From a virus, in IMG/VR virus record IMGVR_UViG_3300037193_002967, positions 1-64,000 of that record: a stretch of 64,000 bases of DNA; one strand, written 5' to 3'. Shown piece after piece: positions 2,850 to 25,662 of the stretch. The notes beneath the pieces were generated by a model that was given only the letters and a program-made list of their open reading frames with translations, was not told the DNA's origin and searched no databases. The first letter of the stretch is position 1. Each line of letters opens with the position of its first letter. The translations under genes and the position numbers were made by a program.

Positions 2850-3411
2850 GATTTTAGATATAATCAATGAGGGCATTGCGGGTATTCATGTTGATGAAAG
2901 GATTTATGGTTTAGCTGAAAACGTAACCAGGGAAACGAGCAGTGGATATATTAGCATGCCTGGGGTGGTAGATATTAATAATGAAGTTAAATATCTCGGT
3001 GTAGATGATATTTATTCCTTTATTGTTTACCACAAAATAACCAATGCGACTATTGTTTATAACAGTACCGGGTATGGCGAAAATTATGGAGATGCTGTAA
3101 ATACTTATCTATCTAGTCTTTACGTGTATTGGGATCGAAAAAAAATAATGCTTTACCCGCCAGATATGCTTTTATTATTGCAGGCCAGAATGCCGGTAGC
3201 TATAAAAGGGCTAAAGGATATAAAGCAAGCGGTGGTCTTAATTGGGAATGCTAATACTAATACTCAACAGATATATCAACAGGAATACAGTTCCAATGAG
3301 CCCTTAACACGTTTACCAGAAGGCAAATATATTATGCAGATCAACTATAACATTCGAATAACTTTTAACCCATCATGCTTTACTAATTGTGTAGAGTGTG
3401 ATGCAAAATAA
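2839..3411 (+). CDS. Tail terminator / tail completion candidate
   Basis: A 190-residue alpha/beta protein between the neck candidate and the tail tube candidate, the usual place of the tail terminator. The C-terminus ends in a short Cys cluster (CFTNCVECD). It overlaps the gene before it by 11 bp and the next gene starts 8 bp after its stop. No family signature is visible; the role is inferred from order. Confidence 0.45.
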   Translation: MVYKILDIINEGIAGIHVDERIYGLAENVTRETSSGYISMPGVVDINNEVKYLGVDDIYSFIVYHKITNATIVYNSTGYGENYGDAVNTYLSSLYVYWDRKKIMLYPPDMLLLLQARMPVAIKGLKDIKQAVVLIGNANTNTQQIYQQEYSSNEPLTRLPEGKYIMQINYNIRITFNPSCFTNCVECDAK

Positions 3412-3419
3412 AAAAGATT

Positions 3420-3980
3420 ATGGCATACGGAATTTATTATCCGGCCGGTTGTGCGGCAGCGATACCGGATCACTATTGCAATCCTTGCGAAACTCCTGAA
3501 CATGGAAGGTTGCGATCTGCCGCCTTTATTGCAAACGATTTCGAATTTACCGATCCTAGCAATCCGGATGAATGGGAAAATGGTATTGCTAATAAGAAGA
3601 TCATTATTATTCCTGAAGTAAATGGCAGTTTTGATGGCGGCAGTGAGGTAGAAGTTCCGGGCTATGGCGATCAGCAGACCAAGCTTACGGGCTATAACTT
3701 TCAGGCTACTTTTAACGACCCGAACTATAAACTGAATGCTGATTTTTATAACGCCATCAAAAATAGTAGGAATTACAGGTTTGCGTATAGAACTGAAACG
3801 CAGATTCATCTAACGCAAAACACTGTACAGGTTATCCCTAAAAATCCTGTTACAGAAGATTTGACCAGTGAGGTAGTATGGAATGTTATTGTAAAATGGT
3901 CTGAGGGGGATGTGCCTACGCCTTATGATATGCCGCAAGGAATATTTACATGTTTTGATTATAGTGGTGTAATTGTATAA
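3420..3980 (+). CDS. Tail tube (major tail) protein candidate
   Basis: A 186-residue, beta-rich protein. It begins with a Cys-rich segment (CNPCETPEHGR near residue 22) and has evenly spaced beta-strand patterns typical of the tube fold. It sits after the tail completion gene and is followed by a strong terminator-like hairpin, so it closes the head/neck operon. The assignment to the tube is by order and predicted fold and is not certain. An alternative is another virion decoration protein. Confidence 0.45.
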   Translation: MAYGIYYPAGCAAAIPDHYCNPCETPEHGRLRSAAFIANDFEFTDPSNPDEWENGIANKKIIIIPEVNGSFDGGSEVEVPGYGDQQTKLTGYNFQATFNDPNYKLNADFYNAIKNSRNYRFAYRTETQIHLTQNTVQVIPKNPVTEDLTSEVVWNVIVKWSEGDVPTPYDMPQGIFTCFDYSGVIV

Positions 3981-21772: not shown

Positions 21773-22252
21773 ATGTTTAACACTAAAGCGCAACAACAAC
21801 GAAAAATTCAACAAACCCACCACGAAATTGATACGAACCCCATGACACCTGAAGAATTAATGAAGCCACGGTATAAGGTAATCGCTGATTATCCACTAAG
21901 TAGATTTATAATAGGGTCTATTGTAGAAGGACAAAAAGGCAGATTTGATGAATGGTTTTTTGAAATAAATGGTAAAGAACTTCCATTCGACATAACACAA
22001 TACCCGCATCTCTTCAAAAAGCTGGAATGGTGGGAAGAAAGAAAGCTGGAAGAAATGCCGCAGTATGTGAAGGAATTCAATTCATTATATAAGATTGGGG
22101 AAGTCATAAAAGTTGCCGAATGGAACATGGGAGATGAAGAGCCCAATATACCTTGTTTTAGAGATGAGACGGATAATTCTTTTACATGGGTTCGTGGCTT
22201 TCATCCTGCCACCGAGGAAGAATATAATGCATACATAACTCAAATAACATGA
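21773..22252 (+). CDS. Hypothetical protein
   Basis: A 159-residue protein, Gln-rich at the N-terminus, with acidic and aromatic-rich middle. It overlaps the lyase gene by 4 bp. No motif is visible. Confidence 0.55.
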   Translation: MFNTKAQQQRKIQQTHHEIDTNPMTPEELMKPRYKVIADYPLSRFIIGSIVEGQKGRFDEWFFEINGKELPFDITQYPHLFKKLEWWEERKLEEMPQYVKEFNSLYKIGEVIKVAEWNMGDEEPNIPCFRDETDNSFTWVRGFHPATEEEYNAYITQIT

Positions 22253-23457
22253 AAAAACAATTGTTACTATTCATTCTTTTCTTAGTGGCCTTTATAGCGA
22301 ATGCGCAGACTTTTCCGATAAAGATCGACGCTATTCGATATGATGCGATGTTAGGAGTTGCTGTAGAAGAAAGTCTTGAGGGCGGAATGCATGTAACAAA
22401 TGTTAACGCCGGTGATTACATTGATTTCAAGATCAACATCCAAACCGACGCAGTGTATTTCTTCAAGGTGCGAACCGCTGGCCATGGTGGCATGCACGGT
22501 GGGATATTACAAATCCGTGATTCCGCCAATAGAATTTTGGGTACGATTAAAACGCCACCCACCCAAAATAAGCAAGCGTTTGCTATAGGAGCAGGCCGGA
22601 TTCGAATGCTTCCTGGATATAGAACCTACCGAATATACGCGATAACTGAAATCTTAAATTTCAAATCGATTGAAATTGATACGTCCAACTACCGGCACTA
22701 CATGACCTTCACGCCGCTGGTGGCCGGCAACAGCACCTGGGAGAATACCCATGATGTTAATGGTTGGATCAAAGAGATCAATAACGCCCGCCCTGCTGCC
22801 GCTACGATCGTCGAGAACCCCTTTGGGAAACCCGGCTGGGCGATGAAGTTCGAGCAGCGGAAGACTGATACCCCTGCGGCTGTGAGGGCTGAAATGAGGT
22901 TAACGAGTCTTTCTAATGAGCCGAGGGAGGGGTGGTGGAGTTGGAGTGAATACTTGCCATCTGAAGATTGGGCGGCGTCCGACCCGCATCAGGACGTTTC
23001 GGGGCAATGGCATGAGCGGCCAGATTTTCATTTAGGTGAAACATGGCGAAGCCCGCCAATTATGAAAAAAATTCAGAATGGAAAATATTGGGTGAATATT
23101 ATTTGGGCATCCGCTGCCGTCAACAGCAATCCATTCAGCTATGATGGACAGGCAACTATTGATTGTGGCCCTGTGTTGACTGATCAATGGGTTGATTGGG
23201 TATTTCACATTAAGTACGCTTACGACAATACCGGTATTCTGGAAGTCTGGAAGAATGGAGTTAAAGTGGTAGAAAGGATCAACATGCCGAACAGTTTCAA
23301 CGATGTTGATGTGCCGTATTTTAAGATCGGTGTATATAAAGGCGCATGGTGCTGCGCGGAATATCACGCCACATCCCCGGGCACGAAAAGAACTATATAT
23401 ATCCGCAACGTGAAAATAGGCAAACCGAATAGTTTTTATAATGAAATGAAACAGTAA
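22249..23457 (+). CDS. Secreted polysaccharide lyase-like protein
   Basis: A 402-residue protein. A Sec signal peptide (residues 1-19, MKKQLLLFILF...ANAQ) is followed by a carbohydrate-binding-like domain (about 20-140) and a beta-sandwich domain (about 150-400) with WWSWSEYLPSEDW, SGQWHERPDF, VDWVFHIKY and the closing FKIGVYKGAW. This pattern fits the heparin lyase I-like Polysacc_lyase family (PF14099). It should act outside the cell on glycans. GC content in 22.7-23.45 kb looks higher than in the rest, and it is isolated among early genes, so it may be a recently acquired cargo gene. Confidence 0.75.
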   Translation: MKKQLLLFILFLVAFIANAQTFPIKIDAIRYDAMLGVAVEESLEGGMHVTNVNAGDYIDFKINIQTDAVYFFKVRTAGHGGMHGGILQIRDSANRILGTIKTPPTQNKQAFAIGAGRIRMLPGYRTYRIYAITEILNFKSIEIDTSNYRHYMTFTPLVAGNSTWENTHDVNGWIKEINNARPAAATIVENPFGKPGWAMKFEQRKTDTPAAVRAEMRLTSLSNEPREGWWSWSEYLPSEDWAASDPHQDVSGQWHERPDFHLGETWRSPPIMKKIQNGKYWVNIIWASAAVNSNPFSYDGQATIDCGPVLTDQWVDWVFHIKYAYDNTGILEVWKNGVKVVERINMPNSFNDVDVPYFKIGVYKGAWCCAEYHATSPGTKRTIYIRNVKIGKPNSFYNEMKQ

Positions 23458-24152: not shown

Positions 24153-24500
24153 ATGCAAAAGGAAACAATATTTGAAATGAATGAAGTGATTGCCCGGTTT
24201 ATGGCGCTTGAAGAACGACATGACGAGTGGCGAGCACCGCATCCAACCCTTGTATTTCTTTATGATAATGCGTGGACGCCAGTACCTCGACTAAAATACC
24301 ATTCATCATGGGATTGGATCATACCAGTTTGGATCAAGTTCAGAAAATTAGAGTTAGATAATAAATATTTTTCCGAATGGTGTAATAGTTTAAGCTGGTA
24401 TTTATATAGTTCGGACGAACCTTCTCGCTTTGCAGAAAGACTATATTATGCTATTCAATGGTATAATAAATACAGTAACTCGTACTCAAATTTGTGTTGA
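24153..24500 (+). CDS. Hypothetical protein
   Basis: A 115-residue protein rich in Trp, Tyr and Arg. Its stop codon lies in the first pentamer of the first GYNNN array (24496-24500). Function unknown. Confidence 0.55.
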   Translation: MQKETIFEMNEVIARFMALEERHDEWRAPHPTLVFLYDNAWTPVPRLKYHSSWDWIIPVWIKFRKLELDNKYFSEWCNSLSWYLYSSDEPSRFAERLYYAIQWYNKYSNSYSNLC

Positions 24501-24580
24501 GTAAAGTGGAGTATAGTACTGCTATGTAATGTCGGGTGCCGTTCAGTGATGCGCCGTTATGTCTAGTATTGTAAAGTTTT
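24496..24580 (+). repeat. GYNNN pentanucleotide array 1 (17 units)
   Basis: Seventeen consecutive in-phase 5-mers, each starting G then C or T, the other three positions free; no unit departs from the pattern. The first (GTTGA) covers the stop of the upstream gene. It is followed by TAAAACAATAAAG and then the ATG of the 188-residue protein gene at 24597. There is no GATTTT tail here. Visible directly in the sequence. Confidence 0.9.
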
Positions 24581-24596
24581 TAAAACAATAAAGTAT

Positions 24597-25163
24597 ATGA
24601 TCTACACAGTAAAAATCGAAGGCGTTACGCCTTATATGCAACATCGCATGGACGATGTTAAATTAGCCGACTGGGAAAAGAACCGCAAACAGATCATCGA
24701 ACGTCCGGATGTGGCCCTCGAAGATGCAAAGCGGGCGGAATATCATTGTTACAGAAATAAAGATGGGCATTGCTATATCCCATCAGAACAGCTTAGAATA
24801 GCTATGATCAATGGAGGCACTTACTTAAAAAGTAAAGTTGGTACTAAAACCAAAAGTATGAAAGGCATTATTGCCGCTGTTCTTCAAATCACCCCTGAGC
24901 AAATATTGCTGCCAGATTATGATGAAATTGATAAAAGGTCAGCCGTAAATAAAAATGTTAAAGCCAGGGTAATGGTGATCCGCCCAAAATGGTCCCAGTG
25001 GGAAACCCAGTTTGATATGATCTTGGATAATGGGACTCTTACAAAAGAAATGCTTACAGAACTTGTAAATGTTACTGGTAATTATGTAGGCATCGGAAGT
25101 TATCGGCCTACTAACAATGGGTATTTTGGTAGATTCAAATTAAATGATATTTGCATAAAGTAG
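24597..25163 (+). CDS. Conserved phage protein between pentamer arrays
   Basis: A 188-residue protein. It starts IYTVKIEGVTPYMQHRMDD, has YIPSEQLRIAMINGG in the middle, and ends NYVGIGSYRPTNNGYFGRF near the C-terminus. I recognise this pattern from a widespread phage and prophage family of unknown function whose members end with a GIGxxRPxxxGxFGRF-like motif. The glycine-rich end is reminiscent of RAMP/Cas7-like loops, but this is weak resemblance. It lies exactly between GYNNN arrays 1 and 2, with array 2 starting 4 bp before its stop codon ends, which makes it the best candidate to bind them or their transcripts. Confidence 0.65.
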   Translation: MIYTVKIEGVTPYMQHRMDDVKLADWEKNRKQIIERPDVALEDAKRAEYHCYRNKDGHCYIPSEQLRIAMINGGTYLKSKVGTKTKSMKGIIAAVLQITPEQILLPDYDEIDKRSAVNKNVKARVMVIRPKWSQWETQFDMILDNGTLTKEMLTELVNVTGNYVGIGSYRPTNNGYFGRFKLNDICIK

Positions 25164-25244
25164 AGTGATGCGATGTTTTGCGGAGTAACGCAATGTTATG
25201 CTAAGTCACGTCAAGCGCAATGAAGTAACGTCCTGTACCGTATA
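25160..25244 (+). repeat. GYNNN pentanucleotide array 2 (17 units)
   Basis: Seventeen in-phase 5-mers; only ATGAA (25220-25224) lacks the GY start. The array starts inside the stop codon region of the 188-residue gene and ends with GTATA, then GATTTTTTT and AAATAATAAA. It has the same 85-nt length as array 1. Confidence 0.9.
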
Positions 25245-25263
25245 GATTTTTTTAAATAATAAA

Positions 25264-25344
25264 GTAGCGTCGCGTTACGTTGGGCTAAGTTAGGTGGCTG
25301 TGATGTAGGGCAAGGTGTTGTGGGGCGAAGCGCAGTTTAGTATA
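25264..25344 (+). repeat. GYNNN pentanucleotide array 3 (16 units)
   Basis: Sixteen 5-mers that all start GY, with one extra T (25299) that shifts the phase once in the middle. It ends GTTTA, GTATA, then GATTTTTT and AAA. Confidence 0.9.
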
Positions 25345-25384
25345 GATTTTTTAAATTTACTTAATTAAGATATTTTATTTTGTT

Positions 25385-25484
25385 GCGATGCAATGTTATG
25401 TCATGTAAAGAAATGTACGGTGGAGCAAAGTAATGTCAAGCCACGTGTAGTATCGTCAAGTCAAGAATAGTAAAGTTTAGTATT
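25385..25484 (+). repeat. GYNNN pentanucleotide array 4 (20 units)
   Basis: Twenty in-phase 5-mers; GAAAT and GAATA deviate (GA instead of GY). It is preceded by ATATTTTATTTTG, the same 13 bases as upstream of the XRE gene at 9486, a possible promoter. It ends GTTTA, GTATT, then GATTTTAT. Confidence 0.9.
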
Positions 25485-25519
25485 GATTTTATAGCCACTA
25501 AAAATATTTTTATTATACT

Positions 25520-25639
25520 GCTGTGCGTAGTTATGCGTGGCGGCGTAATGTTAAGTTGTGTAAAGTGGAGTTTAGTAAAATAAGGTGGAGTAAAGTAATG
25601 TCAGGCCACGTGTTGTATGGTAAGGTCAAGTTTAGTATA
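25520..25639 (+). repeat. GYNNN pentanucleotide array 5 (24 units)
   Basis: Twenty-four in-phase 5-mers; only ATAAG deviates. A stretch of about 35 bases (GTGGAGTAAAGTAATGTCAG and on) is nearly the same as in array 4. It ends GTTTA, GTATA, then GATTTTTTT and the leader of the next gene (ATG at 25663). Confidence 0.9.
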
Positions 25640-25662
25640 GATTTTTTTCAAATAAAAGAACA

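Follow-up and report, generated by a model that had tools for sequence, protein, structure and literature searches.

A phage-encoded VIPR-type locus whose GYNNN guide arrays probably carry contiguous base triplets

Introduction

Viral Interference Programmable Repeat (VIPR) systems were described in 2026 (PMC13142463; bioRxiv 2026.04.26.720920, version 2), and a literature search found no paper on VIPR besides this preprint. According to its main text, the Vipr protein is a minimal RAMP that co-purifies with RNAs built of five-base units, the vrRNAs, which are about 100 nt long and consist of 9-16 YNNGG units and a 3' tail (PMC13142463). The NN of the GGY/NN pentamers pair with double-stranded DNA, and each unit skips one target base, which falls on codon wobble positions (PMC13142463). 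VIPR represses transcription and silences competing elements, and its natural targets are located in satellites and prophages (PMC13142463). There are seven VIPR types, the vrRNAs of which use GGY/NN 'or a related consensus (fig. S17)', and an accessory vap gene is 'typically' present (PMC13142463). RNP formation, binding of double-stranded DNA and silencing were shown for SUSP1 only (PMC13142463). Moreover, hammerhead-interspersed arrays are mentioned in the main text, tRNA-like ones are not, and the text contains none of the terms GYNNN, triplet, tRNA and Bacteroid- (PMC13142463).

Two further kinds of RNA-binding protein are relevant for comparison. In CRISPR effectors, Cas7 binds periodically along the guide RNA. 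The trp RNA-binding attenuation protein TRAP follows a five-nucleotide step in its bound RNA, and the spacer bases of TRAP sites carry no target information.

Here, we describe a vipr-like gene and its arrays in a stretch of 64,000 nucleotides (positions 1 to 64,000 of the IMG/VR virus record IMGVR_UViG_3300037193_002967), which is called the window in the following. This kind of system has already been described, and what is new is that the GYNNN clade, to which the window belongs, probably reads triplets. Novelty is measured against the main text of the preprint, the supplement of which may already draw a GYNNN consensus (PMC13142463).

The gene and its flanking arrays

The vipr-like gene of the window comprises 188 codons from ATG to TAG and is framed by arrays of GYNNN units on the same strand (Table 1). 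The minus strand of the window contains no GYNNN run of at least six units. When the window was simulated 50 times with a first-order Markov model, the longest GYNNN run comprised 4-6 units, whereas the real window has runs of up to 17 units, and these run lengths are far outside chance. The first unit of array 1 overlaps the stop codon of the upstream ORF 24153-24500, and the first unit of array 2 includes the vipr stop codon. The original prediction let array 1 end 17 bp before the start codon, which is right within a base (16 bases lie between 24580 and the ATG), and it let array 2 begin in the last codon; indeed, its start is the third base of the final sense codon. Array 1 is probably a guide RNA.

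Table 1 Coordinates of the vipr-like gene and its arrays in the window
Feature	Coordinates	Strand	Strict GYNNN runs (units)	Remarks
vipr-like gene, 188 aa, PHROG 4652	24597..25163	+		Predicted RAMP/Cas7 fold; homologue of SUSP1 Vipr (PDB 36pp)
Array 1 and T-rich end up to the ATG	24496..24596	+	24496-24580 (17)	Candidate guide RNA; 17 units, 24496-24580, also if single irregular units are allowed
Array 2, then T-run	25160..25263	+	25160-25219 (12)	17 units including one irregular, 25160-25244
Array 3, then T-run	25264..25384	+	25264-25298 (7), 25300-25344 (9)	7 + 9 units, a single array with a one-base slip at 25299
Array 4, then T-run	25385..25519	+	25415-25464 (10)	20 units including two irregular, 25385-25484
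Array 5, then T-run	25520..25662	+	25520-25579 (12), 25585-25639 (11)	24 units including one irregular, 25520-25639

Array 5 is in part a diverged copy of array 4, and the differences in the nine aligned units are mostly found at the third variable base. Moreover, the window arrays 4 and 5 and array 3 of a relative (L002) all contain K-N-Q-H-V triplets, with differing third bases. These shared triplets are compatible with synonymous variation in a target family or, alternatively, with a weaker constraint on the third base.

Elsewhere in the window, a 402-aa ORF (22249-23457) has polysaccharide lyase and CBM6 domains (Pfam) and, judged by these domains, probably encodes a depolymerase.

Identity and predicted fold of the protein

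The window protein belongs to PHROG 4652 (E 2.2e-20), which is thus the phage family of unknown function in which the original prediction had placed it. An AlphaFold2 model built with 26 family sequences reached a pLDDT of 78.8 and a pTM of 0.75, with low confidence in the G-loop. At the G-loop, the protein alignment shows four additional residues of the NNGY type in the window clade, which are absent from the GGYNN rows. All of the 50 Foldseek matches listed are chains of Csm, Cmr or type VII CRISPR effectors (best E 2.8e-6). VIA-align gave Z values of up to 11.9, for instance 11.7 for a type VII effector chain (rmsd 4.7, 162 residues), and covers only folds ranked by Foldseek, so that families absent there carry no conclusion. 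By its model, the window protein has a Cas7/Csm3-type RAMP fold; a RAMP/Cas7-like fold had been guessed from the glycine-rich end of the protein, and both Foldseek and VIA-align bear out this guess.

A sequence search of the PDB with the clade profile yielded one convincing relative, the entry 36pp 'SUSP1 Vipr protein' (E 2.8e-15). The window protein alone matches 36pp with E 2.1e-7, and the two proteins are 28% identical over 195 alignment columns. The SUSP1 gene agp039 sits at the coordinates of one of the loci collected here (L028), and the arrays of this locus, one upstream and three downstream, match the description in the main text of the preprint (PMC13142463). Homology to SUSP1 Vipr together with the predicted RAMP fold identifies the window locus as a VIPR-type system. 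The view that the protein is the reader of the arrays or is under their control is supported by the same homology and by the co-purification of Vipr with RNAs built of such units (PMC13142463). The example given for it, attachment of the protein to the two ends of its own mRNA, is not favoured because the array content is hypervariable and resembles stretches of target sequence, which is unneeded for autoregulation.

Relatives, array motifs and the protein tree

A single-sequence query found 19 IMG/VR loci, queries with Felix-like and Gordonia-phage proteins found 16 more, and one further relative is located in a Draconibacterium MAG. The close relatives are 14 loci (L001-L012, L018 and L039), that is 15 loci with the window. 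Period-5 arrays adjoin the gene in 14/14 close relatives. In the 15 loci, 50 runs of at least 7 GYNNN units were detected, all of them at most 1.5 kb from the gene and on its strand, and no such run occurs elsewhere in the same loci (386,475 strand-bases). All 18 further loci show a period-5 score of at least 38 near the gene; in six of the 18, the score is not clearly above the locus' own period-4/7 maximum, which is set by an unrelated repeat in L013 and L030, while the arrays are weak or irregular in L016, L017, L031 and L032. The combination of array-less homologues with a fold lacking a nucleic-acid surface was looked for and was not found.

The fixed letters differ among the relatives. 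GGYNN arrays are present in Felix O1-like phages and in the Gordonia phage MakoManhole, and motifs read by eye are CTCNN in L013-L015, RAYNN in L019 and GCANN in L037 and L038. In a maximum-likelihood tree of 28 proteins, a single branch (support 96/98) separates 14/14 GYNNN rows from the rest, and the CTC rows and the GCANN rows are likewise each separated by a branch; L012 has a stop in its ORF and is absent from the protein alignments and the tree, and its arrays are still counted. Five changes suffice for the six motif groups as compared to a mean of 13.0 after shuffling. Since the motif groups follow the protein tree, the array motif has evolved together with the protein.

In Felix O1-like phages, proteins that are 98-100% identical to the query are encoded beside arrays differing in variable bases and in number, and the variable part therefore turns over fast. 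In L020 and L023-L029, which belong to these phages, arrays are gained, lost or shared like cassettes beside near-identical Vipr proteins, and the first units often lack GG. The arrays of L037 (3565-3867) are almost pure GCAAG, which is hard to square with a specific guide, and are perhaps degenerate or newly formed. Thus, a target-like look is not universal among the arrays of the relatives.

The clade profile matched 2/395 genomes of the phylum, namely the centre genome itself and L054, the array of which is of the GGCNN type (by eye). A plasmid search gave one weak match. Two viral contigs carry tmRNA genes (L047, 5114-5517; L051, 390-737), and in L047 the distance from the vipr-like gene to the downstream tmRNA gene is about 560 bases.

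Neighbour statistics and codon phase of the guides

The three variable bases of a unit (N1, N2 and N3) were subjected to a neighbour test in 48 GYNNN guides with 438 units. A dinucleotide table of the surrounding phage DNA with masked arrays served as background, and the four units at the end of each guide as well as two homologous guides (window 25520 and L011 6759) were excluded from the counts. The position N3 is not G in the window clade, and an idle N3 should be independent both of N2 and of the N1 in the following unit. The pair N2N3 gave z 3.33, and the pair of N3 and the N1 of the next unit, which reaches across the fixed G and Y, gave z 4.23. By comparison, z was -0.22 for N2 and the next N1, at most 1.81 for ten non-adjacent pairings and at most 0.69 in reversed order. 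The link between N3 and the next N1 is best fitted by the distance-1 table (15.8 bits versus 0.0, 3.5 and 2.6 for distances 2, 3 and 4), and the small gain at distance 4 also has a high z of 3.90. This link survives the omission of any one locus (z 3.70-4.34) and is destroyed by shuffling the unit order within guides (p 0.0002). Moreover, it recurs in both parts when the loci are divided into disjoint halves and the table is taken from the other half (z 3.22 and 2.81). The N2N3 signal appears in one half only (z 3.28 and 1.24) and is not significant at the heaviest trim (z 1.47). The pair N1N2, which is adjacent under every reading, reached only z 1.28 at the main trim, and a stray pair of N1 and the next N3 had p 0.0085 in a first mutual-information screen.

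As a control, 46 GGYNN guides were used, which are not fully independent because some share stretches. These guides gave z 2.84 and 3.46 for N1N2 and, as the published rule predicts, no signal for N2N3 or for N3 and the next N1; z was 2.89 for N1 and the next N2 in the Felix control. The guides on which the neighbour test was refined are those that first showed the signal, a concern which the split halves and the GGYNN control lessen and do not remove. From the neighbour statistics of N3, we infer that the GYNNN triplets are consecutive stretches of the source sequence, and the GYNNN clade therefore probably reads contiguous triplets without a skip.

The base frequencies at N1, N2 and N3 fit the codon positions 1, 2 and 3 of the sense strand (+17.4 bits), while the other five phases score -33 to -131. 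Beyond base composition, the codon signal is weak: the total frame-0 codon score reached only p 0.026, the best-frame counts equal those of column shuffles (19 versus 18.3, p 0.47), and 20 in-frame stops were observed where 25.3 are expected (sd 4.0). A guide in sense direction cannot pair with mRNA; if the phase is real, it would point to the DNA template strand as the partner, which would agree with the recognition of double-stranded DNA in SUSP1.

Array ends and multi-guide layouts

At Rfam gathering scores, no ribozyme family was found in 28 related loci, and the window gave only chance-level rows. In two very distant VIPR lineages, the Draconibacterium MAG (L039) and a Gordonia phage (L021), the guide arrays are separated by tRNA-like hairpins that consist of a T-arm and an acceptor strand and have loops of the GGTTCGATTCC or GGTTCGACTCC type. 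They are located at 3654-3681, 3775-3802 and 3927-3954 in L039 and at about 1651-1693, 2984-3025 and 3102-3144 in L021, and ARAGORN detected no full tRNA at these hairpins. The hairpins may allow RNase P and RNase Z to free the guides.

A compact multi-guide design is present in L010 (5610-5974) and L018 (6570-7019), with six and nine or more consecutive short arrays, respectively, of about 8-14 units in register; the boundary between two arrays is a single TTNNN unit after a T-rich unit. Hairpins form the array ends in L004 (6638-6675), L005 (6610-6660) and L006 (5947-5990 and 6603-6645), where a GTGGGGTTA- or GGAGGTTA-like loop follows GGCCT or GCCTT, whereas the arrays of the window end in T-runs. 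These end hairpins are possibly a structured tail in a subclade.

Search for natural targets

No natural target was found in any search, and the collections are poor in likely hosts. A local scan of all loci with 47 guides and 0 to 3 skipped bases matched the arrays themselves only. Exact spaced patterns of L011 array 1, window array 1 and L010 guide 3 had 0 matches each in viral_contigs. With up to 3 mismatches, window array 1 did not match the 72-kb record, L039 guide 2 did not match the genome of L039 itself, and two guides matched 0/43 genomes of the family of L039 each. The guides gave no match or weak partial matches in INPHARED, and the translated guides gave nothing in Pfam and PHROGs. 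Two candidates were discarded. The exact spaced pattern of L039 guide 2 had a single match in viral_contigs, in a contig with levivirus-like ORFs (L055); it is regarded as chance, since the next unit mismatches and most third bases differ. L011 array 1 matched 45/393 genomes of the order of L039 with at most 39.2 bits, none of the matches covering most of the query, and these are regarded as noise.

Discussion

The locus resembles the type II VIPR of SUSP1 (PDB 36pp) in that a homologous, phage-encoded RAMP gene is flanked by same-strand arrays of five-base units, which mix fixed and variable letters and have hypervariable content beside near-identical proteins. However, the window clade fixes GY and SUSP1 fixes GGY, GY being covered only by the phrase 'a related consensus' in the main text of the preprint (PMC13142463). 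Furthermore, there are three variable letters per unit with the contiguity statistics of an unskipped triplet, and the arrays have T-rich ends, whereas a pseudoknot tail is reported for SUSP1 (PMC13142463). No ORF family is common to most of the 15 loci within 4.5 kb of the gene, some contigs being short, if vipr itself and frames on the opposite strand are excepted. Silencing by occupancy is therefore likelier than cleavage.

With the backbone RAMPs Cas7, Csm3 and Cmr4 of CRISPR systems, the protein shares the predicted fold, and a periodic binding along the guide RNA may be shared as well. In contrast to CRISPR systems, there is a single small protein, no cas genes were noticed, and neither a tandem repeat search nor reading of the flanks revealed a CRISPR repeat-spacer array. 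Moreover, the units combine a five-nucleotide step with base-specific fixed letters, whereas the CRISPR RAMPs have a six-nucleotide step (PMC13142463).

Taken as a whole, it is likely that the window encodes a VIPR-type guide system in which contiguous, codon-phased triplets direct the silencing of competitor DNA. The array transcripts would end, or be cut, at the T-rich 3' ends, and the 188-residue Vipr, a single RAMP, would polymerise along the array RNA with one protomer per pentamer. The fixed G and Y would be held by the protein and the variable bases presented for pairing with double-stranded DNA. All three variable bases would represent three neighbouring target bases, with the next unit continuing directly, so that the guide includes a counterpart of the wobble base, which the published GGY/NN systems skip, and N3 may pair as well. 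The bound DNA, probably the coding sequence of a competitor, either a phage or a mobile element, would be kept from transcription. The window system would act as SUSP1 VIPR does, and targets and processing in the clade are likewise presumed.

The evidence leans towards the GYNNN clade being a VIPR variant with a contiguous triplet code and no skip between units. It is rather unlikely that the published rule applies unchanged, with N1N2 pairing, the third position skipped and a functionless N3 at which Vipr is merely indifferent to G and which is perhaps a remnant of guide copying from targets. The one-base skip is established for SUSP1 (PMC13142463), homologous guides differ mostly at N3, as expected under weak constraint, and the target searches yielded none that proves pairing of N3. 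However, N3 is informative together with N2 and with the next N1, and a base that had long been idle would have lost this property. The same statistics bear on the idea that the protein is an RNA-binding autoregulator or coat that, comparable to TRAP with its spaced triplets, binds GYNNN tracts on its own transcript with neutral variable bases. Arrays abutting both ends of the gene on its strand and the nearly uniform GCAAG of L037 would suit such a protein, but neutral bases should not be linked like genomic neighbours across the fixed G and Y. Fast array turnover beside near-identical proteins, the many successive arrays of similar length in L010 and L018 and the DNA-targeting RNP formed by SUSP1 Vipr (PMC13142463) also speak against it. 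TRAP has the same five-nucleotide step, differs in its fold and recognises a (G/U)AG triplet per unit instead of a fixed GY followed by free bases, and the arrays described here vary in length from 7 to over 30 units. Regulation or coating of this kind is thus very improbable.

The arrays could also be DNA sites, such as a centromere, an origin or a packaging site, at which the protein binds duplex DNA. Tandem sites adjoining the gene of their binding protein are a common arrangement. Against such sites stand the strict strand bias (50/50 runs on the strand of the gene), a predicted RAMP fold of the kind that binds guide RNAs and the RNA nature shown for SUSP1 (PMC13142463), and we give this explanation hardly any credence.

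If the triplet code of the GYNNN clade is true, a 17-unit guide defines about 51 contiguous bp in codon phase and mostly in the sense strand, and one protein suffices, no conserved accessory gene having been seen. Between VIPR clades, protomers would have come to differ in how many bases they read, together with the fixed motif (GGY versus GY), while the five-nucleotide step remained constant. VIPR is the proposed forerunner of the CRISPR RAMP effectors, and the experiments concern only GGY/NN guides with a skipped base. The GYNNN clade would be evidence that evolution can alter how many bases a protomer reads, and it would offer a very small programmable RAMP with denser specificity. It would also provide a natural comparison (GGY versus GY, skip versus no skip) for the residues that set the code. 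Finally, the proteins of PHROG 4652 gain a likely function; most of the listed records of Felix O1-like phages annotate them as hypothetical.
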